Source: Tribonema minus
Lineage: Eukaryota > Sar > Xanthophyceae > Tribonematales > Tribonemataceae
Assembly (NCBI GenBank): GCA_017506865.1
Contig: JAFCMP010000168.1
Coordinates: forward strand, 1,054,001-1,118,000
DNA length: 64,000 nt
Direction of reading: 5' to 3'
Shown piece by piece: positions 1,500 through 25,302 of this stretch. The position numbers and the translations under genes are program-made. The notes under the pieces were generated by a model. It was not told the DNA's origin. It searched no databases and saw only the letters and a program-made list of their open reading frames with translations. The stretch's first letter is position 1, and each line of letters starts with the position of its first letter.

Positions 1500-1937
1500 T
1501 GTGGGAATCTGCCCCTTTATCCGCCCCACAACTTCATCTTTCAACTTCCGTAACTGCCATCTACCGTTGGTACAGTTGCCCACCACGAGGCCCACTACTT
1601 TGGCACCCTTGGTGTGGTGTAACTGCCACCTATGATTGGTTAGTTGTCTACCAATCAGGCCCACCACTCTGGCCCTGGGTGTGCCCACACTGGCTCTCTA
1701 AGTTGCCAACTGTTGGCAGCAGCTCTCCTCTGCTCCCTTGCAATGCAATCGCTCTTAACCTGCAACACGACAGTGTCAGACTTTGCAACCCTGCCCTGCC
1801 TTGCCAACCTGGAGTCAACAAGTGGCCTGCTGTTTTTCGCCTACAGCTGAGTGTGGGCTGACCTACAACTGGTCCGGCCATCACACACTCTGTGTTTTGG
1901 GGCTTAAAACAGCCTAGTAGTACGGTAGTACCCCACA
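1500..1937 (+). repeat. Left LTR of the outer retrotransposon
   Basis: This 438-bp copy matches 22866-23289. It starts TGTGGGAATC and ends CCCCACA, a short inverted terminal repeat of the usual TG...CA kind. It is 14 bp longer than the right copy because of one short insertion near its 3' end. Confidence 0.95.
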
Positions 1938-2514
1938 TTCTGGAGGAGTCCATCCGGTTTCGGACCTCGCGCGCGGTACCTGGCGCTGCAGCAACAGCAG
2001 CAGCGACTCACCAGCAACGCGCCCTCGCCAGCTACAAGCGCAGCTACTGTGAACGTCGGCCGACATCATCTCACAGCAGCAATTCTTCTGGCAACTTCGT
2101 CCATTCCTACCTTCCCAAGCGAGCAAGACCTCAACGCGTTCGCCATCTACCGAGTCTACAGCCTTCTGGACAGCATCAGCATCAACCAGTTTCGGCAACC
2201 CGGAAGCGACGGCTTCCCCATCTCGGCACTACTTTCCATCCCTATCATCAAGGGGGGGAAGAAAGTACATCATCTACAGCAACAGGAACGTAAGCCTGAA
2301 GCTGACTCCTTGCTTGTGGCTGCATTCTTAAGTGCGCTGCATTCTCAGCAAGTAGAGCTCTGAAGCTACTTTGCCTCGCGTGGCAGTAGCAATTCAGTCC
2401 GCAACCAGCCACAGCAGCACTTTCCTAGTCTGCTGATACCTAGCCTGGCAGCATGTTTATTGCATTCGGACGCATGTCGGAGGTGGAGCTGGGGCTACAC
2501 CTGCCGAAGTCGCC
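1938..2514 (+). other. 5' leader of the outer element
   Basis: Untranslated leader between the LTR and Gag. Apart from the primer site, I see CAG/CAACAG-rich sequence and no convincing gene. Confidence 0.6.
1941..1958 (+). promoter_or_regulatory. Primer binding site of the outer element
   Basis: TGGAGGAGTCC begins three bases after the left LTR. A TGG start at this spacing is what is expected for pairing with the CCA end of a tRNA primer. The tRNA species was not determined. Confidence 0.6.
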
Positions 2515-5500
2515 GTGTCTCGAGCGGCCGCTCGAGCTGCAGCCGGGGGCCCGTCGAACCCGTTCGACGACCCAACCCTCGTCTACCGCGACCCCAACAA
2601 CGAAGACAGCAGCAGCGATGAAGAAGACACGTCAGGCCCGCCTGCCGCTCCGTCGCCGCGCCGCGCGGTGCCACCACGCCTCCTTGGCCCTGGCTTTCTG
2701 CCCAATCTTCCTCCTTTTCCTGGCCCGCCGCCGCCGCCAGCCGCAGCAGCTTCCGGCCGCGCCGCCGCCGCCATCGCCGCCGCCGCCGCCGCCGCTGCCA
2801 CCGGACCTCCAGCAGACGCCGCACCCTCCTTCGCGGGCGCGCCCTCTACACTGGACCCGACCGCGGCCGCCACCGCCGCTGAAGTCGCCGCCGCCGCCGC
2901 CGCCGCAGGCATCGACCTGCGCCCGCGGCGCCATCGCACCCCCGAGGAGCGAGCCGCCCGTGACCATGCCAAGCTGCTTGCCTCGTTGCGCAGCATCGGC
3001 ATCCCCCTCACAGGTCGTGGCGCAGTAGAAAAGACTCTCAAGCCAGACGCCGTCAAGAACCTCCCCGACTACCATGGCGCCAAGCTACTTCAAGGCGTAC
3101 GTACGGAACAAGACGTCACGGAATGGGTAGAGCGCTTCATCTCCTATATGGAGACGCAGAAAGTCACCGCGCCCCACGACATCTGCCACTATGCCTTCCT
3201 CAGTTTGAGAGGCGAGGCACATGCGCTTGCTACCTCTCTCCGCCAGGCCGGCACCTGGCCAACTTCCTTCACCGGCATCGCCCAGGTGCTGCTCGAGCAC
3301 TTCGCCCCCCCGGCAGCGTTCGAGGACAGCTGCCGCGCCGTGGTCGACCTCAAGCAGGGGGCCAAGGAAACCAGCAAGGCCTACATTCTACGCGGCCGCC
3401 GCACGCTTCAGCAACTGTCTACCCTATACGGCCAGGTTCGCCGCACTCGCGCCGTCTCCGTTGACGGCAGCAGCGGCGCCTCCGCCGCCCCTCTACCTGA
3501 GCTTCAGGAGTGCCTGTTCCTCACCATCCTCGAGGGGGGCCTACTTCCGGGACTGCGCCAGCAGATGCGCCTGCAGACGCATTCTCGCTTCAACGAGGAG
3601 GAGATGGTGGTGTCTCTTCAGCGCATTGAACGCACCATCGTTTTGCGCAACAAAGAGAATTCCACCGCGACCAACGGCGCCAGCAGCGCCAACTTCATGC
3701 CACCTCAGCATGGGTCGCCATCTCCCTTCAACAGCTCTCCCTCCGCCGACTACGTTGATGACGACACATCGCTCAACTACGGCAACAACAACCAGGGCAA
3801 CGGCAACCGCAACGGCAGCGGGCGCCGTCCCTACCGCGGCAACCGTCACGGCGACAATTCCCGTCCGCAGAGTGCTCCCACCCCCCAAGGTGGCAACTCT
3901 GCGCTGCGTTTTGCTCCCCCTGCAGGTGCCGCCTCCGCACTCACGCCTTCTCGAGACCGCAGTCAGCAGCGCCAGCAGGCGCCGCCGCCGCGTCCACCCA
4001 CGCTCAACCCCAGCAGCGGAGAACGGCCCCAAGACGCACGCCGCCAGCTCCCTAGCCGCGGCCCCAACAACTCTGGCACGCCTGGCGCAGCACAGCAGCG
4101 CCCGCGGCCAGCTCATCACGGTTCTGTCAACCTGGGCGCCCCCGCATACCTACGCGCCACAGCATTCACGGACCCTTGCGTCATCCCCGTCGGCATGCCG
4201 TCTCACTCGCGTACCGACGACTCAGTCTGGTACAAGATGTTTGGCTACGACGCCGGAGCAACTTTAGCCACCGTGAAGGTCAGCATCGGCAGCGGAGCTG
4301 ACGCATTGGACCTTTCAGCCGCCGTCGTCGACACCGGCGCCGGCAACGTGTACATCCGCACGCGAGAGGCCAAGAGCTACTTCAGCCTACTCCCCGTCGC
4401 CGATCGTCCGCGCGTGTTCCTCATGCCAGAGGACATCACGCGTCAGCACATGCCCATCTTCCACGCCGGCAGCGACGCCAGCGCCGACGAGCCCGGGGAC
4501 TATGGTGGCCTACCTCTCCCCGCGCCTCGGCTTGGGCGCCCGTTGCACACCCCTGCCAACTCCCACCGTCCTGTGGCCAGCGCCAACATGACCGCCGCCG
4601 GCAGCCCGCGCTACTTCGCAGTCCCAGCTCAACACGGCGCTGACGACGTCGACATGCTGGACTTCAGCGACGCTCCACCTCGCCGCAGCGCGCACCACGC
4701 TCAAGCAGTTCAGAACTCTGCCAGGGGCCGCGCGCCGCGCCGCGAGGGTCAGGCTGGGCGCACACCCCGCGCCGACGCATCGCGCCACCCGCGCCGCGGC
4801 TCACCGCCGCCGCCCGACTACGCGCGCCAGGCCTACATCGCCCCAGCTCACGACAGCCCTCGCCGCAGCAGCGCTCGCGAGCGCAGCCGTGATCAGCCAG
4901 TTCGTCAGCACAACCGCCGCCGCAGCACTCATGAGCGCAGCCGCTATCGGCGAGCTCTTCAGCACGACCACTGGTGGCACCGCCGCAGCCCAGCGCGCCA
5001 CTCCCCGCAGCACCGCTCGCCCCCTCCACAGCCTGCCGCTCAGCGTGGCCACCGCGCGCCGCACCCAGCGCGCGGGCAAGTGGAGCGCATCGGGCCACTG
5101 CCGTCACCACAGCGCAATCAGCCCGTCGCCATGGACATAGCGCCGCCCGCCAATGGAGCAGCAGCGCTCAACCAGCGCCACGGCCACCCCTTGGATCCTC
5201 GCACAGCCCCGACGTTCGGCGCACTTCCGCAGCTTACGCGGCCGCACAACTTGCCGCACGCCCCTTTCACCATGACGCAGACGCTGCCGGAGGGCCCCCT
5301 ACTTCCAACGCACGCGCGCACCGGGAGGTTCAGCGCGCCGCCATTGCTGTCTTTGCCGCTCGCAACACAGCAGTGGCCCGGGCACGGGCCCCGGGGCTGC
5401 CACCTCCGCCGCCAGTCTACAGCCCCATATCACCGGTGTACAGAACTCTTGGCTCACCCGTGGCGACCACGTCGGCATGTTCCTGATGGCGCCCGGCTCA

Positions 5501-5595
5501 CCAACTACGGACGCCCACGCCAACAGCAGCAGCAGCGACAGCTACGAGACCAACAGCGTCACCGGCGACCAGCTCACCGCCACCGACGCGCCTGA
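2515..5595 (+). CDS. gag: Gag and protease region of the outer element
   Basis: The N-terminal 170 residues are Ala/Pro-rich low complexity. A retrotransposon Gag (capsid-type) domain lies at about 3064-3660, with the helix-rich pattern TEWVERFISYMETQ ... ALATSLRQAGTW ... LEHFAPP. A Gly/Asn/Pro/Gln-rich linker follows. An aspartic protease with active-site motif VVDTGAGN lies at about 4280-4450. The last third (about 4680-5590) is very rich in Arg, His, Ser and Pro, unlike usual Gag tails, and may bind nucleic acid. No CCHC knuckle is obvious. The pol region overlaps the end of this frame in another frame, an arrangement that fits the programmed frameshift many members of the family use. Confidence 0.85.
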   Translation: MSRAAARAAAGGPSNPFDDPTLVYRDPNNEDSSSDEEDTSGPPAAPSPRRAVPPRLLGPGFLPNLPPFPGPPPPPAAAASGRAAAAIAAAAAAAATGPPADAAPSFAGAPSTLDPTAAATAAEVAAAAAAAGIDLRPRRHRTPEERAARDHAKLLASLRSIGIPLTGRGAVEKTLKPDAVKNLPDYHGAKLLQGVRTEQDVTEWVERFISYMETQKVTAPHDICHYAFLSLRGEAHALATSLRQAGTWPTSFTGIAQVLLEHFAPPAAFEDSCRAVVDLKQGAKETSKAYILRGRRTLQQLSTLYGQVRRTRAVSVDGSSGASAAPLPELQECLFLTILEGGLLPGLRQQMRLQTHSRFNEEEMVVSLQRIERTIVLRNKENSTATNGASSANFMPPQHGSPSPFNSSPSADYVDDDTSLNYGNNNQGNGNRNGSGRRPYRGNRHGDNSRPQSAPTPQGGNSALRFAPPAGAASALTPSRDRSQQRQQAPPPRPPTLNPSSGERPQDARRQLPSRGPNNSGTPGAAQQRPRPAHHGSVNLGAPAYLRATAFTDPCVIPVGMPSHSRTDDSVWYKMFGYDAGATLATVKVSIGSGADALDLSAAVVDTGAGNVYIRTREAKSYFSLLPVADRPRVFLMPEDITRQHMPIFHAGSDASADEPGDYGGLPLPAPRLGRPLHTPANSHRPVASANMTAAGSPRYFAVPAQHGADDVDMLDFSDAPPRRSAHHAQAVQNSARGRAPRREGQAGRTPRADASRHPRRGSPPPPDYARQAYIAPAHDSPRRSSARERSRDQPVRQHNRRRSTHERSRYRRALQHDHWWHRRSPARHSPQHRSPPPQPAAQRGHRAPHPARGQVERIGPLPSPQRNQPVAMDIAPPANGAAALNQRHGHPLDPRTAPTFGALPQLTRPHNLPHAPFTMTQTLPEGPLLPTHARTGRFSAPPLLSLPLATQQWPGHGPRGCHLRRQSTAPYHRCTELLAHPWRPRRHVPDGARLTNYGRPRQQQQQRQLRDQQRHRRPAHRHRRA

Positions 5596-8463
5596 CGACG
5601 ACGACTTAGACACTACCGAGGACGTCGCACCCGTCATGGCCAGCCTACTCAGCGACGCCGATCTGCCAGTACATCCCCTGCTCGCAGATCCACTGGAGCC
5701 GTCGCGCCTATTTGGCCCCCCTGCTGAGCCTCGCGACATGACCGGCAAGCCGCCGGTGGACTTCGCGTCGCTCATCCCAACCGACAGCCCATTCACGGCG
5801 GAGCAGCGCCAAGACTTCGTCACCCTGCTCCAACAGTTCGAGGACTGCTTTGGACAAGAAGACACGGACGTCGGCAACGTCTCTGCTTCCTTCGGCTACT
5901 TCCGGCCGGTCATGAAGGCTTCCTACAAGCCCTTTCGTGAACCCACACGCCGCTTCAGCCCCGTGGCCCTTGCCATACTGCTCACTTGGGGCGAGCAGCA
6001 GCTTGCAGCTGGCCTTCACGAGCGCTGCGCGCGCACTGACCAGCTGAGCCAGCCCCTCGTCACCCCCAAGCCGCACACCAGCAAGTGGCACATCTGCGGT
6101 GACTACCGCCGCATCAACAACTTGAAGGACACCGCCGACGATCACGGCCCCGTCGTCCACATACCGCAGCTCATGGGCGACTTCCACGGCAGCCGCATCT
6201 TTGGCAGCATGGACGCGCTTGGGGCGTTCAACAACTTGGTCATCGACCCCGAGTGCCGCCACCTGTACGCGCTGGAGATACCGCAGCTTGGCATCATTCA
6301 GCCTACACGCCTCGGCTTTGGCAGCAAGGTCGCTCCCACCGCCTTCAACCGCGTCGCCGACATGTGCTTTGGCGACCTGCGCCCCGCCGGCGCCACCAAG
6401 TACGTCGACGACATGAGCCCACACGCCGCCAACTACCAGCAGTACCGCGCACTCATTTATGCCATCCTACTCTGCACCCGCTACTACGGCCTGGTGTGGC
6501 AGGTGAGCAAGTGCTCTTTTGGTACAACTTCAACCAAGTTTGTCGGGTTTGAAGTTTCTGCTTCAGGCGTCAAGCCGCTCACTCGCAATGTGGAGATCAT
6601 CTCTGCAGTGCCCTCGCCGCGCACCGTCAAGGAGCTGCGCAGCTTCATCGGCATGGTCGCGTTCTACAGCAAGCACATTGCCCGTCACGGAGAGCTCGTG
6701 GCACCGCTCAACCACCTCTTACGCAAGACGGCGGGACCTGATCCATTCCGCCAGTGGTGTGAGCGCCACGACCGTTGCATGGCTCAGCTGCGCGCCGCCC
6801 TGCTATCGGAGCCCGTCCTCACATACGCTGACCCTCAGATGGCATACCAGCTCTACACCGACGCGTCCGCCTACGCCGTAGGCGCAGTGCTCACACAGTG
6901 CCCGCCGGATGCAGAAGCTGGTCCCGATCGCGCCGGCGCCCTACAGCCCTACGAGCGCGTCATCTCTTTCTTCAGCAAGGTGCTATCCCCCGCGGAGGCC
7001 AACTACGGCGCCACCGTCAAGGAGCTCATGGCCATCGTCAAGGCCGTGGAGTTCTTCCGCGATTACTTATGCTACGAGTCGTTCACAGTGTGGACTGACT
7101 GCCAGCCTCTACTCTTCCTCAACCGCAACATGGCCAGCAGCGCAGTGCTCACGCGCTGGGCCTTACAGCTTGAAGAGTACGACTACACCGTGCGCTACCT
7201 CAAGGGCGAGCATCAGCCTGCCGACGGTTTCAGCCGCATCATTGGCATGGATCAGCTACAGGAGCTGTACGACGTGCCCGCTGCCGCTTTACCGCTTCAA
7301 CTGCCGCTGCGCCGGCCAGGCGCATCGCGCAGCATTATGCAGCCAGCCACCTTTGCCGACTTGGGCTGTGGCATCGGCAGCGCCACGGAGGGCGCCGCTG
7401 GCTACATGCGCCCCATCATCGCCGTGGAGCTCGACCAACGCACACTAGATGTGTACTCGCAGCGCTTCCCCACGGTGCCCACCATCTGCGCCGACCTTGC
7501 TTCGGAGGAGGTTTACCGTTTCCTATGCGTACGCTCTGTCTACGCCTTGGTACATGGCAGCAACTGCCAGCCCTACTCCGCCGCCGGCCCGCGCATCGAA
7601 GGACCACTCGCCATCTCCACACTCGACTACGGCCGCCTGCAGCTACGGTGCCGGCCCGTGCTCGGCATCTTGGAGAACGTGCCCCCTTTTCTCAGCAGTG
7701 CCACCTTCCGTGCGTACCGCGACATGCTTCTCAGCGGCGGCTACGACATCGGCATATACACGTTAGACGCAGCGGCTCTTGGCGCCGCCACTGTACGCCG
7801 CCGCGTCTACGTTGTGTCACTGCAACGCAGTGAGCGCTCTGGGTCGCGCCTCATGCTACTGGACCAGTGCATTCGCGATTGCCACCAGCAGCCGCGCCGC
7901 CTCACCGTCCACGACGTCCTGCCCAGCCAGCCGGACGCCTACGTCTACATGTCCCGCTACCCCGCCGGCGCTTGCATCTTGGATGCTCACGCGCCCGCGC
8001 CCACTCTTCTAGCGCGCATCGCTCAGCGCCTGCCGGCCAACTACGTGCCGCGCGCCGGCGATGCCTGCGCACCTTCTGAGGCTCATACTTTGAGCTTCAG
8101 CGACATGCTGCGCATTCAGGGCATGGAGCCTATTTCGCCGCCACTGCCCCTCCCCCGCGCTTTGGAGGGACGCCTGGCCGCCAACGCCATCCTGCCCATT
8201 CACATGAAGACCCTCTCTAGCTGCCTGGCCATGGTAGGAGCGCTGGACTTACTGCCCGTCTCCACGATCATCCCTGGCCGCCTCATTTGCGCGCCGACTC
8301 GCGCCAAGGCCCACATGGCGTCAGGAGCTGTTCAGTTTGACCGCGCAGCGCTCAACAGCGCCGCGCTTGTCATCGCTCCAAACCCTCTGGTGCCCAACAC
8401 TAGGGTTCTTCGCAGCGCCAAGCCCGCTGCCACCGCTACCACTTCCGCCGCGGCTGATGCAAC
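5477..8463 (+). CDS. pol: Reverse transcriptase, RNase H and C5-methyltransferase region of the outer element
   Basis: The reverse transcriptase spans about 5900-6720, with KWHICGDYRRINN, the YVDDM catalytic box at 6401-6415 and the Ty3-type thumb FVGFEVSASGVKP ... LRSFIGMVAFYSKHI. RNase H follows at about 6845-7230 (LYTDASAYAVGAVLTQ, TDCQPLLFLNR). Next, at about 7340-8260, is a cytosine-C5 DNA methyltransferase. Its parts are motif I FADLGCGIGSATEG (AdoMet binding), motif IV GSNCQPYS with the catalytic Cys at 7565-7567, motif VI LENVPPF, motif VIII VRRRVYVVSL and a late LSFSDMLRIQGM block resembling motif IX/X. The integrase of the same element lies beyond the inner insertion. Methylation activity is inferred from motifs only. 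Confidence 0.88.
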
Positions 8464-8837
8464 TGATACGGCTTAGGGGCGGATCAGGTTCACAATGCCC
8501 CAGTTAGGGGTTCCAGTTAGACTTCAGTACTGAGTGGCGGTTGAAGCCTCAGTGTGGTGCCAGTTCCTAGTTGCATGTGAAAAGCCACACTGAGGCCTAT
8601 AGCTTTTGCGCAGTATAAGAACCTCCCCTGCAAGCGGCAAGCCCGAGCCTTGCTGCGCCTGCCGTCGTCCAACCCCAAGCCTTCCGTCTCTCAGCAGCAG
8701 AATAAGATATCCGGTAAGCGCATCGCGTTTCCTTTCGCATAACATTTCATTTGAGTTCTCTGAAGCGTGTCTACTTGTTTTGCTCTTCCAGCTTGCTTGT
8801 TTGCATTCATGACAGCATCACAAGGTAAGCCGCTTCA
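8464..8837 (+). repeat. Left LTR of the inner retrotransposon
   Basis: A 374-bp LTR matching 20085-20458 with about three substitutions. It contains a TATA-like AGTATAAGA at 8612-8620, a plausible element promoter. Confidence 0.95.
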
Positions 8838-8840
8838 ATT

Positions 8841-8857
8841 TGGCACCCGAAGACAGT
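8841..8857 (+). promoter_or_regulatory. Primer binding site of the inner element
   Basis: TGGCACCCGAAGAC starts three bases after the left LTR, the usual position and TGG start for tRNA priming. The tRNA species was not determined. Confidence 0.65.
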
Positions 8858-9830
8858 CCTTACCTCGTGCTAACCCCGCCCGCAAGGGCAGCAGCGTGGT
8901 GATCGCTGTTCAATGTATCACTGCTCGAATCGTGTCAAAGCCTTTCGAGGACCCAGATTACGTAAAGCAATACGTAAAGAACAGCCGTGGGAAGCGAGTT
9001 AAACGTTAATCACGCTAGGTTCCTGCACTAGAATGCTTATGACGGGGCGGCGTAGTGGTGCACCGCTACGTCGTGACCCGCCCCCTTGATGTCAACGACG
9101 CAGTGCGTGCTGCACGGGTCTGAGCAGCAATGAACATGCAACTTCATTTAGCTGGCCTTATTCTGCGGCTCATCTGTGATTGATGAACGTGGTCACGTGG
9201 ACCCATATAGGGCATCGAGGGTAGACCCGTGCGGTAGCGCGCTGTGTACACCAGCTTGCGCGCCGTACACTATCACGTCACGAACGCACCAGAGTCTCCC
9301 GGGAGAACGCGCGGAGATCCTTTAGGGGGGACACGTGATAGCTTGTGTATCAGAAGTCACAGAAACGGTAGTGACTTGTCATAGACAGTGTTAAGTGGTT
9401 GCACTCGAGAGGTCTCGAGAATAGGCGCACAAAGGGGCATGCGCTGCCACTTTTCTGGCTGTAACGGTTGCCTATGACTAGAATAAAAACCCTACCGCAT
9501 GCTCTTCCTTAGTAATTTGCTCTAAAGCTGATATGACTAGCTTTTTGCAAAGAAGGGGGAGAGGAGTCTAGCTTAAGAGCAAAGCGATGCAATTTTGCTT
9601 CATGATTGTACGGCCGCAATTGTGTTGCAGAATTGACAACGCGGTCGATCTGTACAACTGCTATCATAATGTCAAACTGGCTGGCTTGCAGTTCAGAGTG
9701 CCCTAGAAGCATCAGACCTCGTGCAGAGGCGTGCGGGGCATAGACGGCTCGTGCGCTGACAATTTAAAATCATGGTTTTGTCGTCGCACTCAGCTTCATG
9801 CGCGTGAATCGTGTGCAGGATACACCATAA
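8858..9830 (+). other. Long 5' leader of the inner element
   Basis: About 970 bases between primer site and Gag hold no convincing reading frame. An ATTAA/AATAAAA-containing stretch and several short inverted GC-rich motifs are visible, for example GGGCGGCGTAGTGG and its near-complement around 9044-9088. Confidence 0.55.
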
Positions 9831-12700: not shown

Positions 12701-12749
12701 GATGGCGGCAATTGAGGGTGGGCCAGAGCCACCACCCAGAGTTATCAAA

Positions 12750-13680: not shown

Positions 13681-14800
13681 ACGTTTGCCGCGTAGGTCAG
13701 ACTCTACGTTGAGGCATTCAGTTGACTGCCCGCCCCCATCTTGGTTGGCTGGTCAGAGTGGTTCGCTGGTGCAGGCCGCTACCGCGGTACACGCAGCGCC
13801 CACGTCAAGTGCACACTGCTCAGCAGCAGTGGCGCGTAGCATACATGCAAAGGCGCATGATGCAGGGTATGCAGAGGTACCCATAATTCCGATGCGCAGT
13901 GCATGGGAAGAGCCAGAGGTAGACTTGGCTGTGGTGCAGCCCGGCATGGCTGACATCGTGGAAGTCGATGACTCTGACTCAGGGTCTGACTCTGAGTGGG
14001 ACTCACAGTCAGTTATGAGCGTTTGCAGTAGCGCAGACGACATGGACATTGACACAGAAATCAGTGCTCCACCCATTGCGGCCGCAGCGGCACGCAAGAA
14101 GCTCGGCGGCGGTACAGACCCGCGCCTTGCCCCAGGTGAGTTGAAGGCAGCGCTCAGGCGCGCTGGCCTTGATGCTCAGTCTCTAGGCATATTAGACCAT
14201 GTGCCAGGTGTCAGCAAGTTAGACACAGCCCCACCAGTGAGTGTGGCAGAGACAATTAAGAATCTCGCAGAAGAGATCACAAAACAGAGGGAACCAGTCA
14301 AGTTACCTCATGTGGGCCTTGCAGTAGGGTCCCCTGAGCCTAGCTCGGTAGAGCGCTCCAAGTCGGAGGCTCCAGTGGAGTACATACGCCCAGTAGCCGG
14401 TGTTGTACCTCCAGGGCAGATGTTTGTGTCCGCGTCGTTACGCGTACAAAGCAACTCTCAGACGCCCAAAGAACTCTATGTGCGCGCCATGGTAGACTGC
14501 GGTGCGACCGTAACCATCATGGGCAAGCGCATTGCAGACAAGCTCCCCCACAGCTATGTATGTACACCTCAGCAAGGTGACTACACTGAGATCCTCTTGG
14601 CAGACGGCAAGACGTCGCTGCAGATCAGTGGTGTGGTCAATGCATGGCTGCGGTTTAAGAACAAGATGTTCTTGCACAAGTTCTATGTGGTAAACGCACC
14701 CATGGACGTGCTCTTAGGTACGGATTTCTTTGCCCCGCATGGCTCAGTCATCTCGTATCACGGCAGTAGCCCAGCCTTCTTCCCAGGGGGACTAAAAGGT
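13681..14800 (+). CDS. Acidic linker and aspartic protease of the inner element
   Basis: A Ser/Asp/Glu-rich linker lies around 13950-14070 (VEVDDSDSGSDSEWDS). A retropepsin-like domain follows at about 14400-14760, with YVRAMVDCGATVTIMG as the active-site D(C/T)GA loop and VLLGTDFF as the second conserved block. It would process the Gag-Pol product. Confidence 0.8.
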
Positions 14801-15196
14801 GTGGCCATACGCCCCATGCACGACAAGAATCGCGCAGACAACGCGAACGCGCATGCGGCAGCACTAGCCAGTTGCAAGGGCAATGGCAGCGCTGAGAGCA
14901 CTGAGGCACCAGACAAGCCTCAGCAGTGCTCAGCTAGGATGGCATATAACACTGTACTGGCACCATCGTCGGAGACGATTGTGGAACTCACGCTGCTACC
15001 AAAGCCAAAGCGCGTGCAGCCCTATGAGGCATTGCTCATACCAGAAGAGACAGTGACTACAGAAATGATGAGAGGCAAAGGTGTTAAGGCAAATATCACC
15101 GCTCTCACTGTAAATGCCAGCGGCACGATATACGCTACATTGAGCAACACTTCAATGTACCCGGTTTACGTGCGCCGCAACACGTAATGGGGAAAA

Positions 15197-17000
15197 GTGA
15201 CTCCAATTAAGGCTGATGATCTGCTAGAAGTGCAGACAGCTACTCAGCAGGCTCTAGAAGCCAAACTGCTAGTAATAGCAGCCAAAAGGCACTCTGAAAA
15301 TGCTAAGTTAGTGGCAGAATTAGCTGCTAGCATAGGCAAGACTGCCAAAGAGGTTGCACAAGAAGTGCAACGGCTGGCAGACCTCAGCCAGCGCCACAAT
15401 GACCAGCTAGAGAACTGCACAGATGCAGAGCTGGAGGAAATCCTTGTGAAAGATGGCAGGCTTGCGCCTCATTTGCAAGGAAGGGGGAAAGATGGGGTGC
15501 TGTTAAAAAGAAAAGCACTTGACATGCTAAAAAAGCACAGGAATGTCTTTGCTAAGGACCCTAAAAACCCTCGAGTCACTCAGCATTTTGAGATTGATGT
15601 TGACACTCAGACGGCCGAGCCGGTGGCGGACAAGGCACGCCATTGGGCTTTCAAAGAAGCCGAGTACATCATGAAACAGATTCAGATGATGGCAAAGCGC
15701 CAACAGATTGAGCCATCAGCTAGTGCATGGGCAAGCAACCCAGTACTAGTGGTTCAAGGCGACAAGATCCGCTTCTGCATAGACTTCAGGAAGTTGAATG
15801 CGGTCACGAAGCGTGATAGTCATGGCTTAGGCAACATGGATGACATGATGCGGGCTGTGCAAGGTGCCAGGATTTTATCTTCGTTAGATCTGGCAGCGGG
15901 TTACCATCAGATCCCGCTGGCGAAGACGGCTAAGGCCAAGACGGCCTTCAGAGCCCCAGACGGCTCGTTGTGGCACTACAAGGTGGCGCCATTCGGGCTG
16001 GTGAACTTGCCAGCGCAGTTCACGAGATTGATGCACCAAGTGCTGGGAGATGCCTTAGGCTCCCACGCGCTAGTGTACATAGATGACGTGTTGGTGTATG
16101 GCACGGACATCGAGGAGCACATCGAGCAGTTAGATGATGTTCTTGGCCGCATAGGCGCGGCGGGCATGAGTGTATCTCGCCCAAAGTGTCAGCTGTTTCA
16201 AGCTGAAGTCAAGTTCCTAGGTCATATAGTTGGCGCCGCTGGAACAAGACCAGACCCTGACAAGGTCAAGGCCATGCTTGACATGAGCCCCCCACTGAAA
16301 GGCGGGGTACCAGACAAGCAGTTGGTACAAGTGGTTATGGGAGTGTTTAACTATTACAGGCGATATGTACCCAACTTTGGGGCGATATCAGAGCCTATAG
16401 TAGCCCTGACCAAGAACAAAGCAGTCATGGTTTGGGGGTCTGCGCAGGAGCGGGCTTTCAAGCGGCTGAAGAGTGCCATGTGCGACAGTCGCATAGTGAT
16501 GCACCCGGATTTCAGTTTGCCTTTCGTATTGTACACCGACGCCTCCAAGACGGCGACGGCAGGTGTGCTTACACAATTCAGACCTGTGAGTGAGGTCGAA
16601 AGGGCAACAGCGGGACAGCCATATGCTCACACGGGCAGGCGCCGCATAGCTGAAGGCGAGGAGGTCAGAGAAGTAGTCGTTGGCTACTTCAGCAAGCTGA
16701 ACTCTGAACCCGACGCGAAGTTAGGAGCGACGGCAGTAGAGTGTCTGGCAGTAGTGCTGGCGCTCAACCACTTCAGGCCTTACATTTGGGGTAACCCCGT
16801 TACAGTGGTCACAGATGCCGCTGCGCTCAGGTGGCTGTTGACGTTGCAAGACTACAACGGCAAGCTACTAAGATGGGCCATGCGCATACAGGAGTATGAC
16901 GTTCCCATTCAGCACAGGCCTGGCAAAAGGAATGCCAATGCTGATGCCCCATCCAGGCTGCCACAGCAGGCAGAGTTAGATGCTGAGCGCTCTACGGAGC
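15197..17000 (+). CDS. pol: Reverse transcriptase and RNase H of the inner element
   Basis: The reverse transcriptase has RFCIDFRKLNAVTKRD (about 15770), SSLDLAAGYHQIPL, FRAPDGSLWHYKVAPFGL, YIDDVLVYG with the catalytic aspartates at 16075-16101, and FLGHIVGAAGTRPDP. The thumb VVMGVFNYYRRYVPNFG is followed by RNase H at about 16520-16960 (LYTDASKTATAGVLTQ, YFSKLN, LGATAVECLAVV, VVTDAAALRWLL, HRPGKRNANADAPSR). The motifs are a close match to the Ty3/gypsy consensus, closer than those of the outer element. Confidence 0.93.
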
Positions 17001-17599
17001 CAGCAGACGAACAGTGGCCAGACGCAGTCCCGAGCATGGACGCACCGCCGTCAGGTGTGCGCTTTGCGGACGAGGCCACGAGAACGCACAAAGTGGCCGA
17101 CGTGAACAGCTGTCGTGGGTACACGGCGGACGCACGTTACGGGCCAGCGTTCAAGTTCAACGAGGCCGTCGCCATATCAGGCGCGGTGGCCGCTAATTTA
17201 GCCGCTCTGACAGCTGTGGAGCTAGCACAGTTGTTGGACAGAAGGCTAGATGACTCCACGGTGGAGGAAGCTGAGGTTGAAGAAGTTGAGATCAACACAG
17301 CGTACGCAGAGCCAGTCAATAAGTACACCGGCTCGTGGGAGCATTCCCAAGCGCAGCGACTCTTAAGGCAGATCGCATGCGACAGGCGACGCAGCATCAG
17401 CTCAAAGAGGGCCAAGTGCAGCGTCACCACGGCTCAGCCGGCGGCAGACTCATTGGAAGAAGGAGAGATTCCAGAGGTAGAAGCTGCTGCTGATGCAGAT
17501 GAGGCAGACGAGCCACCGGATGGCAAAGCTGTTTTAGGCAAGCGCAAGAAGACGCTGCCAAGGCCAGAAGTGGTGCAGTTGCTGAAACGGGTGGCCGAG

Positions 17600-18960
17600 G
17601 GAGACTCGCCTGCCACGCCAGCAATGCTCAGCAGAGCCGCATTTCTTGAAGTTCAGAAAGCGGACGGCTTCTGTCGAGCAGTGAGCAAGATGCTCATTGA
17701 GGGTGACATACCCGAAGGCGCGGAGCTAGCCGCTCACGTCTTAGCACAGAGAGAGCAGTATACCATCGAGGAAGATGGCCTCTTAGTGCACAGTTCAACA
17801 AGCCACCCCAAGAGAGGTATGGTGTTGTTGCAGTGGGTCGTGCCAGTGGTGCTACGAACCCTAGTCATGCGTTTAGGGCATGATGACGCGAGCGCTATGC
17901 ATTGCGGCATAGGCGCTACGCACACGCGTATATTCGAGAGGTATTTCTGGCCTGGTATGGGCGCAGACATACGAACGTACGTGCAGAGTTGTATGACGTG
18001 CCTAGAACGCAAGCGCGCCAGCTCCACTCAATATAAGCAGTGGTTGGCTGAGCCAGTGCGCATGTGGCAACGTCTCAACATTGATATCACAGAGCCTGGT
18101 ATCCAGTCCGCAGCGGGGCATAAATATGTTCTGACTATTGTGGAGACGAGGTCCGGTTTTGTATGGCTAGCCGCTATGCATGGCCAGGGTACTAAAGATT
18201 TAACCCCGCACCTCATGACAGTGTTCCTAGAGGTTGGAGCATTAGTGGAGGAACTATGCTCAGACAAGGGCAAAGTCTTCCTTGGCAATGTGGTCAGTGA
18301 CTTTGCAGAGCGTTTAAAGTTAAACGCATAGAGACCAGTGCATACCACCCACAGACCAATGGTGTGGCAGAACATGCAAATGGTCGTGCTAAGAAGGCAC
18401 TAGCATCTTGGGTCAGCGCTCAGCAGACAAACTGGCACGAAGGCTTAGAGCTCGTACAGTTTGTGTTGAGGACAACTCCCCGAGATGAAACAGGTTTAAC
18501 ACCCTTTTTCTGTGTGTACGGTCGGGAGGCTTCACTGCCACATGATGCGTTTATGCACGAGGATGGCAGCAGGAAGTTGGACCTGCACGAGGAGATTGAG
18601 CACAAGTTAGATATGCTTGAGCTTGCAGACAAAGTGGTGTCAAAGGCGCTGCAAGTGCGCGCCCAGAAGATCACCAAGCGCAATGAAGCTATTAAGCGCG
18701 CGGTGAAGTTCGCCGTCGGTGACTATGTCATGATACGGCTGCCCAAGCAAAGAGACAGGTCGGCTGCTCTTGATGCCAGGTATGTGGGGCCTTGGCAGAT
18801 CGAGGCTCGCACAGGCGAATCAGGCCTCTCATTCATCTGCAGGATGATGGGCAGAAGAGTTAGACACACTACAGCTCATGTTGAGAACATGAAGCCCTTC
18901 CACATGAGGCCTAGTGCCATGTTGGAACCAGGTGTGCACGCCATGCTAAGCCCCCAACAG
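17600..18960 (+). CDS. Integrase region of the inner element
   Basis: An HHCC zinc module (MHCGIGATHTRIFERYFWP ... CMTCLERK) lies at about 17895-18015. The catalytic core starts with WQRLNIDITEPG, followed by ELCSDKGKVF and the Glu-bearing NGVAEHANGRAKKALASW block around 18358-18410. A GDYVMIRLPKQ module near 18718-18750 matches the SH3-like C-terminal domain. Between RNase H and integrase is an unusual linker of about 200 residues rich in Glu, Ala and Asp. The region shows signs of decay. Confidence 0.8.
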
Positions 18961-19842
18961 GTGGAGGAGCTAGCGGATGGTGAGAAGTTATACAGAGTTC
19001 TAGACCGCCAAGCGGGCCCCAATGGCTCGTGGCAGTACAAATGGCAGTCCATAGATGGCAAGTCACATGCGTGGGTGTCAGAAGATGACATGCTGCAAGA
19101 AGTGACGCCACGGACCTTAGACGCTTTTCACGCGCTCTATGAGCTGCGCAACGAAGGAAGGTTGCCAGCATATGCTATCAGGCCCACACCCAAGGAGGAT
19201 GCTGGCATGCGCCGAGAGAACGCGCTGCAACTCTATCCCATCGGCACAGCGCTGGTCAGGGAGCACAGAGCGGTGGTGGGCGGCCCAATCACTTACGTGT
19301 GGGGGGCCGTGAAGAACTTTGTGTCACCGTACTGGAGGATCAGATATGAAGATGGTGAGTGGGAACAGATGACCCGTACACAGGTCAAGTCTGCCATACA
19401 GTTGGCAGAGGCGGTGCGTAACAAAGCCAAGAGGTTGCAGGCGCAAAGTGCGCCGGACAGCGCCGGTGGTGCAAGTCCCAACTCTCAGGTCACGCGAGGT
19501 CTGCCGGCTTCCCAAACCGGTTCTGAGGCAAGCTCAGCCCAAGATTCTGCTCAGCCGCGGATCTCGCTGGTAAGGCTACCCAGACTGCCATCTGATTTCG
19601 GATCAAGCTTTGAGGGTGAAGTGGTTTGGTATCACTTTCCGACAGGCTGGAGCCGCGGCGTCCTAGGCGAGTTTTACCCTGCCAGGTCGCAGTTCACGTT
19701 TGATGTGCTGTTCGACGGCGAGAAGACCGTCAGGCGGATGCGTTTACGTCCAGGTGACTACCGCACGCCAAAAGACAGTCCACATTCATCATGGAACGTG
19801 CTCGCCGCTCGCAGTACATCCTCAGAGGAGAGTGCGAAGTAG
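18961..19842 (+). CDS. Chromodomain-like and Tudor-like tail of the inner integrase
   Basis: Three small beta-barrel-like modules can be seen. The first, about 18985-19095, looks like a chromodomain (KLYRVLDRQ ... SWQYKWQSIDGKSHAWVSEDDM). The second, about 19265-19400, has the WRIRYEDGEWEQM pattern of Tudor-like repeats found in plant and algal chromatin proteins. The third, about 19610-19765, has EVVWYHFPTGWSRG ... FDVLFDGEKTVRRMRLRP and also looks Tudor-like. Reader modules after integrase are known to direct integration to marked chromatin; a run of three is unusual. Domain names are by eye. Confidence 0.5.
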   Translation: MEELADGEKLYRVLDRQAGPNGSWQYKWQSIDGKSHAWVSEDDMLQEVTPRTLDAFHALYELRNEGRLPAYAIRPTPKEDAGMRRENALQLYPIGTALVREHRAVVGGPITYVWGAVKNFVSPYWRIRYEDGEWEQMTRTQVKSAIQLAEAVRNKAKRLQAQSAPDSAGGASPNSQVTRGLPASQTGSEASSAQDSAQPRISLVRLPRLPSDFGSSFEGEVVWYHFPTGWSRGVLGEFYPARSQFTFDVLFDGEKTVRRMRLRPGDYRTPKDSPHSSWNVLAARSTSSEESAK

Positions 19843-20070
19843 TTGTGGGGACTCAAGTTGAGTCAAAGCTGAGGCCGGCGACTCCCTTTTCCTGCAGAGA
19901 GGATTTCCCTGACTAGCAGGTTTGCCTCCCAGGTTTTTAATGGGGTTTCCAACCAGTTATATATTGGCCTCCATGCTTAATAGTGCACATAGTGCGAGCA
20001 TGCTGCAACTACACAAGGGACCGCGATCTGCTGCTTCGAGTTCAAGTCCGCATCGAGGGCGATGCTCAGC

Positions 20071-20083
20071 AAAGAAGGGGGAT
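20071..20083 (+). promoter_or_regulatory. Polypurine tract of the inner element
   Basis: AAAGAAGGGGGA abuts the right LTR, the expected site of plus-strand priming. Confidence 0.65.
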
Positions 20084-20084
20084 C

Positions 20085-20458
20085 TGATACGGCTTAGGGG
20101 CGGATCAGGTTCACAATGCCCCAGTTAGGGGTTCCAGTTAGACTTCAGTACTGAGTGGCGGTTGAAGCCTCAGTGTGGTGCCAGTTCCTAGTTGCATGTG
20201 AAAAGCCACACTGAGGCCTATAGCTTTTGCGCAGTATAAGAACCTCCCCTGCAAGCGGCAAGCCCGAGCCTTGCTGCGCCTGCCGTCGTCCAACCCCAAG
20301 CCTTCCGTCTCTCAGCAGCAGAATGAGATATCCGGTAAGCGCATCGCGTTTCCTTTCGCATAACATTTCATTTGAGTTCTCTGAAGCGTGTCTACTTGTT
20401 TTGCTCTTCCAGCTTGCTTGTTTGCATTCATGACAGCATCACAATTTAAGCCGCTTCA
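20085..20458 (+). repeat. Right LTR of the inner retrotransposon
   Basis: A 374-bp copy of 8464-8837 differing at about three positions, followed by the target duplication CAAC at 20459-20462. Confidence 0.95.
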
Positions 20459-20462
20459 CAAC

Positions 20463-22506
20463 TGCCAGCGCCGCCACTTCTTCCGCCGGCGCTAGCGCCG
20501 ATGTTGAAGTTGGCGTGCAGTCAGCCGCCCTTGACACCACCGACGCAGCCGTCAGCGCCGCCGCTTCGCCCGCCGGCACCAGCCCCGACGTTGAAGTTAG
20601 CACGCAGCCGGCCGTCCTTGGCACCGCCGGCGCCGATGGCGTCGGCCGCTCCGCCAGCACTTCTGAGCCCGCTGCCGCCGCCGACCCTCCCTCTTCGCCA
20701 GCCCCATCGGACAGCAGCAGCGCGCCCATGCCGTCCGCTGCCGCCTCTAGCGTCGCAGACGCTGGCGGCGCGGACTTCATCAACGACGCGGACTTCACCG
20801 CCTCAGCGGAAGGCGACGGCGACTCCAGCGCGCCCGCAAGCTACGCCAGCCTGCCTGGCCTTACGTTAGAGCGCCTTCGCGAACTTCAAGCCGCTGACGC
20901 CGCCGCCGGCCCCATACTGCGACAGCTCGCCGGCGACTCTACTGCTCAGTCATCTGCCGTCGGTGACGCTCCCACTTCTGCCGCCGCCGAACTCGCCAAC
21001 TACCGTCTCAGTGACGATGGCGTATTATTCCGCGTGGACATGGAGCAGTCAACAGTGTACAGCAACGACAGGGAGCGCGTTACTCTCTTTGTGCCTCAGG
21101 TTTTGGTCTTCACAGTGCTCACCGCCACCCACGACGACCACGTCTCCGGCGGCCACATGGGCGCGGAGGTCACGCTGCGCCGCGTTCGCGCCAAGTACTA
21201 CTGGCCCACGCACCGCGCCGATGTATTGCGCTGGTGCGACACGTGCATTACGTGTCAGCGCACCAAGACCCCCCACCGCAAGGCGCAACTCCCCTCCGGC
21301 ACGCTCAACACTACACTGGAGCCGCGCCAAGGCCTCCACATCGACCTTATGGGCCCCTTTCAGCCGTCCGCTGATGGCAGCCTATACGTATGCGCACTGG
21401 TGGACCCCTGCACGCGCTTCCGCGTCAACACCGGCATACCAGGCAAGGCGCCCCGCCACGTCGCTCAGCGCATCGTGGACTACTGGGTGGCCTACTTTGG
21501 CGTGCCGCGGTACCTGCACTCGGACCAAGGTACGGAGTTCGTCAATGACGTCATTCGCGAGCTTTGCGACCTGCTCGGCATCGACCAGACCACCACCACG
21601 CCGTACCGCCCCCAGGCCAACGCCATCGTGGAGCGCGGCAATGACGTACTCGGCAATATAATGCGCGTACACGCCCTGCGTCACCCTCAGCATTGGGACC
21701 GGCTACTGTTCGCGCACTCCCTCGCCGCCAACACCGCGTACCGCCGCTCGGTCTTTGAGTCGCCATTCTTCCTCCACATGGGCTTTCATCCGCGTCTTCC
21801 CGTCGACATCATCTTGGGCGAGCCCGCGCCGCCTACTTCCAGCGACTACCGCCGCGAGCTTCAGTCAACACTGCAGGAGGCATACGAGCTGCTACGCCGC
21901 AACAGCGAGGCCCTACAATGCCGCCTTGACGCTGACGCCGCCTTGCTCGACATACCTACCTACTCAGTTGGCGACCGCGTCTGGGTGGCCGCCGTACCGG
22001 ACCCCAAAATCGCCGTCGCGCCCAAGCTTCAGTCGGACTGGGCAGGCCCTTTTGAGGTGCTGCGCGTCATCGACCCCATATGTGTTGAAGTACGCATGTC
22101 CGCCAACGCTACCACCGGCACGCGCTTCCACATCGCGCACGTCCGCCGCTACGCTGACGGCGAGCGCCCATCGCCGCTCACGGAGAGCGACTTTGTCTAC
22201 ATGGGCCGCCCCCTACTCACGGTTCACGCGCCACGCACGCCTGGCCGCACCGACGGCGCCGACGCCGACGTCGCCTGTACGTTGGACCCGTCCGTCGCCG
22301 TCGAGGCCATCGTGGCGCGCAAGCCTGGGCGTGGACGTGCCGCCGACGGCAACCAAGTCTACCAAGTCCGCTACTTCGGCGACCTCAGCGGCACTGACTG
22401 GCTCAGCCGTCGTCACCTCATCAACCGTGGCCTTCACGACATGGTCACCGCGTTCGACACGCGTTTCGCGCTTCCCGAGCCCATCAACCTCGACACCCGC
22501 GCCTGA
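20463..22506 (+). CDS. Integrase and chromodomain region of the outer element
   Basis: This is the part of the outer pol region that lies downstream of the inner element. After an Ala/Ser/Pro-rich stretch come an HHCC zinc-binding module (HDDHVSGGHMG ... CDTCITCQR, about 21130-21260) and the DDE catalytic core, with HIDLMGPF, YLHSDQGTEF and NAIVERGNDVLG (about 21330-21690). An SH3-like C-terminal domain around 21960-22170 carries YSVGDRVWVAAV. A chromodomain-like module lies at about 22280-22420 (VEAIVARK ... VYQVRYFGDLSGTDWLSRRHL). Chromodomains in this position steer integration to marked chromatin in chromoviruses. Stop codon at 22504-22506. Confidence 0.88.
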
Positions 22507-22865
22507 GCCAAGAACTTCAAGAGGCGTTGGAGGGGGGCGTCGCCGCGCACGCGCTAAGTACATGCCGCACTCCGCCGCATGTCTGTTGTTTTGCACTCCA
22601 TGTGCAATGTAGTGTGTCGCGCGCCGCGCGCGCGCGCGTTTCATACAGCTTGGCTGTTCAATGTTAGCAGCATCGCCGCCCTATTGGCCGCTTTGCGTAC
22701 ATGCAGCTTTTGCTGTTAGGTGTCAGCAGCATCGCCGCCCTATTGGCCGCTTTGCAATGTGGTGCTATTGTGACACCGTTTGAGTAACTGTAAGGGAGGG
22801 GGGAGCATATTCTTGTGATGCACCACGTTCACACTGGTGTTATCACAGGTACATCAAGGGGGGTA
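22507..22865 (+). other. 3' untranslated part and polypurine tract of the outer element
   Basis: It contains a CG-repeat tract near 22618-22640. A 33-bp direct repeat with core GCATCGCCGCCCTATTGG occurs twice, about 60 bp apart (22670-22760). A G-rich polypurine tract, AAGGGGGG, lies at about 22856-22863, abutting the right LTR, where plus-strand priming is expected. No gene seen. Confidence 0.65.
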
Positions 22866-23289
22866 TGTGGGAATCTGCCCCTTTATCCGCCCCACAACTT
22901 CATCTTTCAACTTCCGCAACTGCCATCTACCGTTGGTACAGTTGCCCACCACGAGGCCCACTACTTTGGCACCCTTGGTGTGGTGTAACTGCCACCTATG
23001 ATTGGTTAGTTGTCTACCAATCAGGCCCACCACTCTGGCCCTGGGTGTGCCCACACTGGCTCTCTAAGTTGCCAACTGTTTGCAGCAGCTCTCCTCTGCT
23101 CCCTTGCAATGCAATCACTCTTAACCTGCAACACGACAGTGTCAGACTTTGCAACCCTGCCCTGCCTTGCCAACCTGGAGTCAACAAGTGGCCTGCTGTT
23201 TTTCGCCTACAGCAGAGTGTGGGCTGACCTACAACTGGTCTGGCCATCACACACTCTGTATTTTGGGGCTTAAAACAGCCTACCCCACA
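22866..23289 (+). repeat. Right LTR of the outer retrotransposon
   Basis: A 424-bp copy of 1500-1937 starting TGTGGGAATC and ending CCCCACA, followed by the target duplication TTGT at 23290-23293. The right flank is the reversed 3' tail of an R2-like LINE, so the element landed at the edge of an older LINE fragment. Confidence 0.95.
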
Positions 23290-23950: not shown

Positions 23951-23989
23951 TTTTTCGCGCCCTGAGCGAGAATTAATAAAAAGTACAAG

Positions 23990-25291: not shown

Positions 25292-25302
25292 AAAGTACAA
25301 GT

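Follow-up and report, generated by a model that had tools for sequence, protein, structure and literature searches.

A retroelement that carries a silencing enzyme presents a paradox, and such elements have, in the literature consulted in part here, been described mainly from Symbiodinium and Klebsormidium. In the sections of PMC5890265 available to us, isolated C5 DNA methyltransferase (DNMT) domains of SymbioDIRS elements are reported to perform de novo CG methylation in yeast, and DNMT-bearing gypsy elements are described from Klebsormidium. Here, we analyze two DNMT-bearing Ty3/gypsy elements, one nested within the other, in a 64,000-nucleotide stretch of the Tribonema minus genome (contig JAFCMP010000168.1; hereafter the window), and place them among their relatives in the 158-Mb assembly.

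Structure of the nested elements

The outer element (1500-23289) is flanked by the target duplication TTGT (1496-1499 and 23290-23293) and is interrupted by an inner element of 11,995 bp (8464-20458) with its own duplication, CAAC (8460-8463 and 20459-20462). In a sister copy of the outer family (L031), the insertion point of the inner element is intact and is read straight through. The outer LTRs (TGTGGG...CCCACA; 1500-1937 and 22866-23289) are identical at 411 of 417 aligned bases with an additional 14-bp length difference, and the inner LTRs (TGAT...TTCA; 8464-8837 and 20085-20458) at 372 of the 375 positions in the aligned block. Putative primer-binding sites, recognized by eye from their TGG start and adjoining the respective 5' LTR, lie at 1941-1955 in the outer (TGGAGGAGTCC...) and 8841-8856 in the inner element (TGGCACCCGAAG...), and purine-rich tracts, likewise identified by eye, directly precede the 3' LTRs (22856-22863 and 20071-20084). 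The LTRs, primer-binding sites and coding domains given here are all on the forward strand.

The outer element encodes a putative Gag and protease open frame (2437-5595; VVDTGAG motif; PF03732, E 1.3e-4, with 22.5 bits falling below the cut-off of 24.1), reverse transcriptase (RT) and RNase H (6065-7180; PF00078, E 1.4e-12; PF17917, E 3.1e-26), a DNMT that we designate type A (7331-8266) and, separated from it by the inner element, an integrase with H2C2 and rve domains (21091-21612; PF17921, E 4.7e-18; PF00665, E 3.2e-15). The window copy is defective, with residues missing, a change of frame and the split caused by the inner element; by eye, approximately 240 residues present in L031 after the protease motif are lacking.

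The putative inner Gag frame (9831-13112) gave no match in a Pfam search and contains a Cys/His zinc-finger-like motif recognized by eye; its end holds motif I of a type B DNMT (12741-13663) situated between Gag and protease. The DNMT is frameshifted near 12.82 kb, which puts motif I in a different frame from the later motifs; the frame starting at 12800 covers positions 26-308 of a retroelement-DNMT profile, and in a sister copy of the inner family (L032) the domain is uninterrupted in a single frame. Downstream follow a putative aspartyl protease (14480-14731; PF13975, E 5.1e-5, 24.2 bits against a cut-off of 28.2, and thus below it; other protease motifs were assigned by eye), RT and RNase H (15761-16897; PF00078, E 3.1e-27; PF17917, E 9.7e-23), an integrase (17840-18319; H2C2, PF17921, E 6.9e-17; rve, PF00665, E 3.7e-5, 24.4 bits and below the cut-off of 32.6) and a second open frame (18301-19842). 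A weak Tudor-like match (E 0.011, below cut-off) was observed at the C-terminus of the inner element.

Plain direct LTR pairs, 4-bp target duplications and the order RT, RNase H, integrase (H2C2, rve), with the DNMT placed between RNase H and integrase in the outer family, identify both as Ty3/gypsy elements. Together with the uninterrupted site in L031, these features confirm the nested arrangement proposed in the initial annotation.

Identity of the methyltransferase domains

Both domains exceed the 22-bit cut-off of the Pfam DNA_methylase profile (PF00145): residues 692-854 of the outer frame 5276-8476 score 51.6 bits (E 1.2e-13), while in the inner element the match covers the 3' part of the domain, residues 11-145 of frame 12800-15187, at 65.6 bits (E 7e-18). 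Type representatives L031, L036, L040 and L038 (types A, C, D and B, respectively) match at 32-61 bits. Each element has its own DNMT, as had been proposed; the outer one follows RNase H, the inner one separates Gag from protease, and alignment reproduces their distinct motif IV forms, NCQPYS and PPCTDFS, respectively. ENV and RxR are found in both (for the inner domain via L032), and the catalytic Cys of motif IV, ENV and RxR are invariant across 13 aligned DNMT rows, including one D-type row that keeps the Cys but has RCE instead of PCQ.

An AlphaFold2 model of the outer DNMT (pLDDT 87.8, pTM 0.89) returned C5-methyltransferases as its best Foldseek matches (best E 2.7e-15), among them MET1, a prophage methyltransferase, M.HaeIII, M.HhaI, DNMT1 and Dnmt2, supporting the C5-methyltransferase fold for the outer domain specifically. 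No DNMT3 was listed when the PDB was queried with domains of types A, B and C, with E values up to 1 allowed. The DNMT domains of these elements are predicted to be enzymatically active.

Survey of the assembly

Five merged searches, in which matches no more than 1.5 kb apart were joined and fragments included, located at least 365 DNMT places in the 158-Mb assembly. The elements opened for inspection fall into four RT clades (types A-D) and carry the DNMT at one of three positions: Gag-DNMT-protease, protease-DNMT-RT or RNase H-DNMT-integrase. The two distinct types noted in the window are genuine but too few to describe the genome.

The domain is prevalent: all 10 elements that were selected through their RT or RNase H, irrespective of DNMT, carry it, and of 150 RNase H loci scored (from 432 candidates), 125 had a DNMT match in range and 25 had none. 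Five of these 25, picked for their DNMT-less state (open frames of 750-1429 aa), indeed showed no DNMT in the 5.3-5.4 kb inspected for each. Four of them resemble D elements (97-99.8% identity) and the fifth a C element (75%), in each case only from a point downstream of the DNMT position, suggesting that they are truncated or rearranged copies. Two of the five share a junction and are 99.4% identical, and could be a single locus that was duplicated or a derivative that lacks the DNMT.

Two Rubisco fragments were also located in nuclear contigs; one of them is presumably red-type, judged from sequence differences, which bears on the earlier description of the host as heterokont-like.

Phylogeny of the methyltransferases

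A protein search with the DNMT alignment yielded 63 matches, of which the few that are named are bacterial. The remainder were treated as presumed prokaryotic, except P0001-P0003, which are environmental A-type sequences, and P0004, which is C-type in trees. In a search for a viral or prokaryotic donor, pattern scans, which detect close relatives only, gave no relative in viral contigs (A, B and C domains) or in genome contigs (C domain).

In trees built without DNMT4, DNMT5, DNMT6 or chromomethylases, seventeen retroelement DNMTs formed one group (support 98/100; 100/99 in another tree). The 98/100 split sets them apart from DNMT1, a single DNMT3A row on a long branch, a portion of the host's Dnmt2, two stand-alone enzymes and 18 rows presumed to be prokaryotic. 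With the N-terminal half alone, A and B grouped at 100/98 and all retroelement rows used (A, B and C, with D rows left out) at 90/75. The near-copies A_L031 and C_L037 were omitted from these two trees and from that of the N-terminal half, L049 (broken frame) from the by-type DNMT tree, and the fragmentary P0001-P0003 from all trees.

These results bear on the proposal of the initial annotation that the DNMTs were acquired separately, the outer and inner lineages each taking theirs from a different donor. Consistent with such a history are the differing positions and motif IV forms, the low identity of the outer DNMT to the B, C and D rows (20-28%), the looser grouping on the N-terminal half, where type C is loosest, and the precedent of Symbiodinium, whose two DIRS architectures are read as independent Dnmt3 acquisitions in the consulted sections of PMC5890265. 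Nevertheless, both types fall within the one retroelement group in both trees, and A and B remain together on the N-terminal half; the proposal is not supported, and separate acquisition is, in our assessment, quite unlikely. The opposite expectation, that the two would branch together as one recent acquisition, holds in its first part only, as they do group, but with the inner-family row (L032) 28% identical to the outer DNMT, their shared origin looks old.

Type by type, the RT and DNMT trees agree, in that every type forms a single clade in the former (100/100) and a single group in the latter (with B at only 56/90). Support for the deep RT branches is weak; the DNMT-bearing rows are separated from eight animal Ty3 rows at only 71/76, in a tree without P0074, P0118, P0121, P0103 and P0135. 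A single clade of DNMT-bearing RT rows was rejected (p-AU 7.4e-5) in a wider outsider set that included two more animal rows and three rows of unknown DNMT state (P0074, P0118 and P0121, whose frames start near protease or RT). L032 (duplicated RT piece) was left out of the RT trees, and L045, L046 and L048 out of both trees with outsiders.

The rejection of a single clade would suit a scenario in which one Ty3 lineage captured the DNMT and the module was then passed on by recombination or template switching into new positions, as would the occurrence of three positions in one genome with only one DNMT grouping. It arises, however, with the three rows of unknown DNMT state placed outside; without them, the RT and DNMT groupings are not in conflict, and the type-by-type correspondence of RT clades and DNMT groups likewise speaks against such spread, which we consider rather unlikely. 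The simplest account is one old capture, followed by relocation.

Selection and CpG substitution

Substitution patterns show the DNMTs to be mostly under purifying selection. Seven diverged pairs from types B, C and D gave dN/dS ratios of 0.06-0.31, the window copy of the inner domain compared with L032 gave 0.23, and pooled pN/pS was 0.255 over six of the eight A copies (L012 and L018 were missed by the start motif). Values were 0.41 for the outer domain and L022, and 0.39, 0.52 and 1.58 in three near-identical pairs that differ by a handful of changes each. The middle (target-recognition) region was not consistently faster than the core, and an arms race on target recognition is not supported.

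A D-type subfamily of at least 27 copies, represented by L044, has lost 24 residues in frame, the motif IV Cys among them. The flanks of the gap are contiguous, open frames reach 3455 aa, and the subfamily has multiplied despite loss of the catalytic stretch. L044 further has ENA in place of ENV, and the DNMTs of L044 and L047 give a dN/dS of 0.17, with no sign of decay. Together with the RCE that replaces PCQ at motif IV in other D-type DNMTs, this subfamily implies that methylation is not needed in every lineage, and that in the derived copies the domain either has a non-catalytic use or is carried with the help of others. The same observations would be expected if the domain served mainly to bind nucleic acid or AdoMet, or had a structural role in the polyprotein, with methylation secondary or lost. 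As a general account this is improbable in our view, given that A, B and C rows retain the catalytic Cys, ENV and RxR and that their DNMTs are under purifying selection.

Within element DNA, to which this analysis was confined, C-to-T changes at CpG were 1.7-4.8 times as frequent as at non-CpG sites in six sister-copy comparisons, the factor being 2.7 when eight A copies were pooled, and CpG changes were raised in all four element types tested. Among A copies, the rate of change at TpC sites (0.0198) equals that at CpG sites (0.0192). The excess fits CpG methylation, by the elements or by the host, which may be the methylator. CpG depletion as a mark of self-methylation was weak or absent (observed/expected 0.70-1.22 in elements versus 0.94 in the rest of the window). 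Raised CpG change in four element types, and hundreds of copies that could dose the cell, are also what might be anticipated from a DNMT whose targets lie in trans, in host DNA or in competing elements, thereby shaping the methylome or silencing competitors; faster DNMT evolution is, however, not concentrated in the target-recognition region, and we assign this possibility a low probability.

Discussion

Our analysis supports the presence of the domain, its fold in the outer element, its catalytic motifs, its prevalence, its common grouping and its purifying selection. Most likely, the DNMT was captured once, long ago, by a Ty3/gypsy lineage and then settled at three places in the polyprotein in different RT clades. 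Presumably made along with Gag and Pol, it may enter the virus-like particle or integration complex and methylate, probably at CpG, cDNA newly made from its own element or the copy that has just integrated. A copy so marked would resemble already silenced host DNA, a disguise that could limit its cost and exposure until transcription resumes. We hold this explanation as a whole, a retroelement-specific DNMT lineage with a single old capture, three sites and self-methylation, with moderate confidence.

A bolder and more doubtful formulation is that these elements constitute a Ty3/gypsy radiation defined by an ancestral DNMT, specific to retroelements, that is standard in Gag-Pol, was moved to three sites and includes one lineage of conserved, amplifying but catalytically inactive pseudo-methyltransferases. 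If true, the life cycle of these elements would centrally involve methylation or binding of their own DNA, and the DNMT would be more than occasional cargo. A small genome with hundreds of DNMT copies, four RT clades, three positions and Cys-less versions offers a ready-made comparison, and placement within the polyprotein may reveal which step needs the enzyme, on the Gag, protease, RT or integrase side.

Among described systems, DIRS elements with a Dam-like methylase also carry their own DNA methylase; theirs is an adenine methylase of another structure, accompanied by a tyrosine recombinase (consulted parts of PMC5890265 and PMC6338049). Ty3/gypsy elements with chromodomains or Tudor domains, described from Ectocarpus and Tribonema, share a setting in red-plastid algae and the addition of chromatin-related domains, but these are reader domains at the C-terminus, and the term DNMT does not occur in the main text of PMC12477816. 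According to the available sections of PMC5890265, SymbioDIRS-Dnmt3 and SymbioLINE-Dnmt of Symbiodinium likewise amount to hundreds of retroelement DNMTs in an alga, under purifying selection and in more than one position, and SymbioLINE-Dnmt is an orphan DNMT lineage; they belong to DIRS (tyrosine recombinase) and LINE elements, whereas those described here are Ty3/gypsy with an rve integrase.

The closest counterpart is KnitGypsy-Dnmt3 of Klebsormidium nitens (de Mendoza et al. 2018, PMC5890265), which, in the sections consulted, has the domains of a gypsy element together with a C5-DNMT encoded within its polyprotein, is intronless and present in several copies, and has its DNMT under purifying selection. 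Its DNMT is Dnmt3-related and located in the Pol ORF, and its repeats are DIRS-like. The Tribonema DNMTs, in contrast, are not DNMT3-like, standing 98/100 apart from DNMT3A (one row, long branch; KnitGypsy itself was compared by description), and occupy three positions, one of them before the protease; both window elements have ordinary direct LTR pairs in place of a DIRS-like arrangement. Relative to these systems, what is new here is the non-DNMT3-like lineage, the three positions, the prevalence and the subfamily without the catalytic loop.

Two nested Ty3/gypsy elements, each with a DNMT domain

The outer (window positions 1500-23289) and inner (8464-20458) LTR elements both have paired LTRs, TG...CA ends, a purine tract and a primer-binding site starting TGG, and are flanked by 4-bp target duplications (TTGT and CAAC, respectively). 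The outer LTRs are identical at 411/417 aligned bases, with a 14-bp length difference, and the inner LTRs at 372/375. The inner element's insertion point is unbroken in L031, a sister copy of the outer element in the same genome; because it is nested, the inner element is the younger of the two. The domain order is Gag-protease-RT-RNase H-DNMT-[inner element]-integrase in the outer element and Gag-DNMT-protease-RT-RNase H-integrase in the inner. Both translated C5-methyltransferase (DNMT) segments matched the Pfam DNA_methylase profile PF00145 significantly (E = 1.2e-13, outer; 7e-18, inner), which, together with the LTRs, target duplications and unbroken site in L031, bears out the nested pair with its own DNMTs proposed in the initial annotation. 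RVT_1, RNase H, H2C2 and rve were matched in both elements, the inner rve below the Pfam cut-off; the outer Gag and inner protease matches were likewise below the cut-off, and these two domains were assigned in part from motifs recognized by eye.

Neither window copy is intact: a stretch that follows the protease motif in L031 is missing from the outer, which is also interrupted by the inner, and the inner carries a frameshift within its DNMT. In the sister copies, the DNMT and neighbouring domains share one long frame, of 2585 aa in L031 (domain order established by Pfam) and at least 2624 aa in L032, the sister of the inner element. L032 also contains a duplicated RT piece, in frame. For the 312-aa outer DNMT, an AlphaFold2 model built on an alignment with 30 database proteins reached a pLDDT of 87.8 and a pTM of 0.89, and its best Foldseek matches in the PDB were C5-methyltransferases (MET1, a prophage MTase, M.HaeIII, M.HhaI, DNMT1 and Dnmt2). 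The catalytic Cys, ENV and RxR were invariant across 13 aligned retroelement DNMTs.

The C-terminus of the inner Pol (18301-19842) weakly resembles a Tudor domain (PTM_DIR17_Tudor, E = 0.011, below the cut-off); Tudor-bearing gypsy elements have been described in Ectocarpus and Tribonema (PMC12477816). Directly 3' of the outer element, a 169-nt repeat occurs three times (23776-25465; at least 98% identity), with an inverted partner at 23290-23372. By eye, the window further contains kinesin-like motor gene pieces (29756-32755; motifs of 17 protein letters not shown) and two related plus-strand ORFs of ~350-360 aa with ankyrin-like repeats (52951-54009 and 58588-59679), between which lies a reverse-transcriptase-like ORF (56132-58012, minus strand).

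Four element families and three DNMT positions

Merged searches of the assembly (158 Mb, 554 contigs; window at G000:C168:1054001-1118000) with PF00145 and the A, D, C and B domains yielded 365 DNMT places, with matches ≤1.5 kb apart joined and Dnmt2, stand-alone DNMTs and fragments counted too; because each search scores best candidates only, many copies may be uncounted. The opened elements fell into four RT clades with three DNMT positions. Type A (RH-DNMT-IN) comprises the window outer element, L031 and L022, the last opened over RT-RH-DNMT only, and type B (Gag-DNMT-PR) the window inner element, L032, L033, L034, L038, L039 and L041. Type C (PR-DNMT-RT) includes L035, L036 and L037, with L048 and L049 assigned by similarity, and type D shares this order with a different RT (L040; L044-L047 by similarity). 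Proteases were recognized as motifs by eye, except in the window inner element and L036 (Pfam matches, both below the cut-off). By eye, the Gag of every opened type B element (9831-12740 in the window) has a motif resembling a Cys/His zinc finger (C-x2-C ... H ... C), located some distance upstream of the DNMT and different from the usual CCHC knuckle, and in L034 a Gag stretch is repeated in frame. A further B-type DNMT (G000:C311:3907-4842) lies inside a 6208-aa open frame, perhaps two elements in tandem.

All ten elements picked regardless of DNMT from the RT or RNase H match lists (best 94 of 492 and best 150 of 432 candidates; L038-L041, L044-L049) contained a DNMT, split across two frames in L049. 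When RNase H loci were scored (best 150 of 432), 125 of the 150 had a DNMT match on the same strand between 6 kb upstream and 2.5 kb downstream. From the other 25, five loci were opened and none showed a DNMT; all five match D or C elements solely downstream of the DNMT position and therefore look truncated or rearranged. L050 and L053 are 99.4% identical and share an unrelated 2.8-kb stretch joining a D-type element just past the DNMT position; they represent either amplification of a derivative without DNMT or duplication of one locus.

Type D carries RCE instead of PCQ in motif IV. At least 27 copies match D-domain residues 1-73 (or 7-73) and 98-313 in contiguous DNA and one frame, so that they lack 24 residues, the motif IV Cys among them. 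Some of these copies have open frames of up to 3455 aa, and L044, of the same kind, is in a single frame throughout, with ENA instead of ENV. Absence of the Cys points to a loss of catalysis, despite which amplification of the subfamily did not stop, with or without other copies' help.

Divergence and origin of the retroelement DNMTs

NG86 estimates of DNMT dN/dS, with synonymous sites near saturation in several pairs, were 0.19 (L033/L034), 0.18 (L038/L041), 0.31 (L038/L039) and 0.23 (inner window copy/L032) for type B, 0.06 (L036/L037) and 0.23 (L035/L036) for type C, 0.22 (L040/L047) and 0.17 (L044/L047) for type D, and 0.41 for outer/L022; pooled pN/pS across six A copies was 0.255. Near-identical pairs, with few changes, gave 0.39 (L035/L048), 0.52 (outer/L031) and 1.58 (L040/L046). 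DNMT identity was below RT identity in 8/8 diverged pairs (DNMT/RT 0.64/0.90, 0.66/0.80, 0.44/0.73, 0.95/0.97, 0.66/0.82, 0.59/0.92, 0.68/0.92 and 0.44/0.57) and in two of three near-identical pairs, the reverse holding for outer/L031 (0.99/0.97).

The initial annotation had also suggested separate acquisitions. A branch with 98/100 support in a tree of 40 rows set 17 retroelement DNMTs apart from 18 MTases presumed to be prokaryotic, DNMT1, DNMT3A, two stand-alone DNMTs of the host and part of its Dnmt2. The grouping was also present in a previous tree, of 43 rows (100/99), and the N-terminal half united A+B (100/98) and A+B+C (90/75), all in trees without DNMT4, DNMT5, DNMT6 and chromomethylases. 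These groupings speak against separate acquisitions. The RT clades A, B, C and D each had 100/100 support; corresponding DNMT values were 96/99, 56/90, 100/100 and 100/100. With eight animal Ty3 RTs as outsiders, DNMT-bearing RTs fell on one side (71/76) and A+B+D grouped at 78/87, a tree by which neither clade is shown or rejected; a single clade of DNMT-bearing RTs was rejected (p-AU = 7.4e-5) in a test whose outsiders also included three relatives with an unknown DNMT state. From these trees, we read the DNMTs as the probable product of one old capture followed by relocation, the main rival being exchange of the DNMT as a module between elements.

In sequence searches of the PDB (E up to 1), the C domain matched Dnmt2 and bacterial MTases, the B domain Dnmt2 plus one unrelated enzyme, and the A domain bacterial MTases and rRNA methyltransferases; DNMT1 and DNMT3 appeared in none of the three lists. 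In a 5.8-billion-protein set, the outer DNMT had three environmental matches; one of them, in which RNase H is fused to the DNMT, shares 84% identity with the window across 28% of the query. Among the best 120 of 571 matches to a B-type RT, the three nearest by E-value (72-73% identical) have PF00145 ahead of RT; the retroelement-DNMT profile found nothing (E up to 1) in the other 117, mostly pseudoscorpion Ty3 elements. Three open frames of 367-390 aa (L001, L002, L003) encode a stand-alone DNMT and are the genome's three best PF00145 matches; L001 and L002 fall outside the retroelement group in the 40-row tree.

Possible methylation traces and comparison with known elements

CpG o/e was 0.70-1.22 in the elements, against 0.94 elsewhere in the window. 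C-to-T differences were 1.7-4.8 times as frequent at CpG as at non-CpG C in six sister-copy comparisons (outer vs L031 in two stretches, inner vs L032, two C pairs and one D pair); the ratio was 2.7 across eight pooled A copies, and LTR pairs differed too little to be usable. CG was the highest of four CpN contexts in all five sets tested, although TpC reached the same level in A copies (0.0198 vs 0.0192 for CpG). This excess, counted in elements only, fits CpG methylation of the elements, whether by the host or by the elements themselves. We infer the DNMT's expression, activity, specificity and benefit to the element. It may be made together with Gag-Pol and methylate the cDNA or new copy of its own element, as a masking or self-restraint strategy, a proposal to which we give roughly even odds.

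Within open-licence PMC literature, with most subscription papers and bioRxiv outside its scope, we found no report of DNMTs at several Ty3/gypsy positions, a gypsy lineage with DNMTs outside DNMT3 or a DNMT subfamily lacking the Cys; the same three features are absent from the available portions of PMC9998398, PMC10538959, PMC12477816, PMC13076208, PMC11105155, PMC5348765, PMC8226279 and PMC12210899. Gypsy elements with DNMTs are already published (PMC5890265) and are named in PMC6338049, which mentions stramenopiles and lumps DAM and DCM elements; PMC12344493 names Copia and DIRS. The K. nitens gypsy DNMT domain had no activity in yeast, a result its authors called inconclusive, and isolated SymbioDIRS DNMT domains produced CG methylation in yeast, a precedent for the proposed mechanism (PMC5890265).
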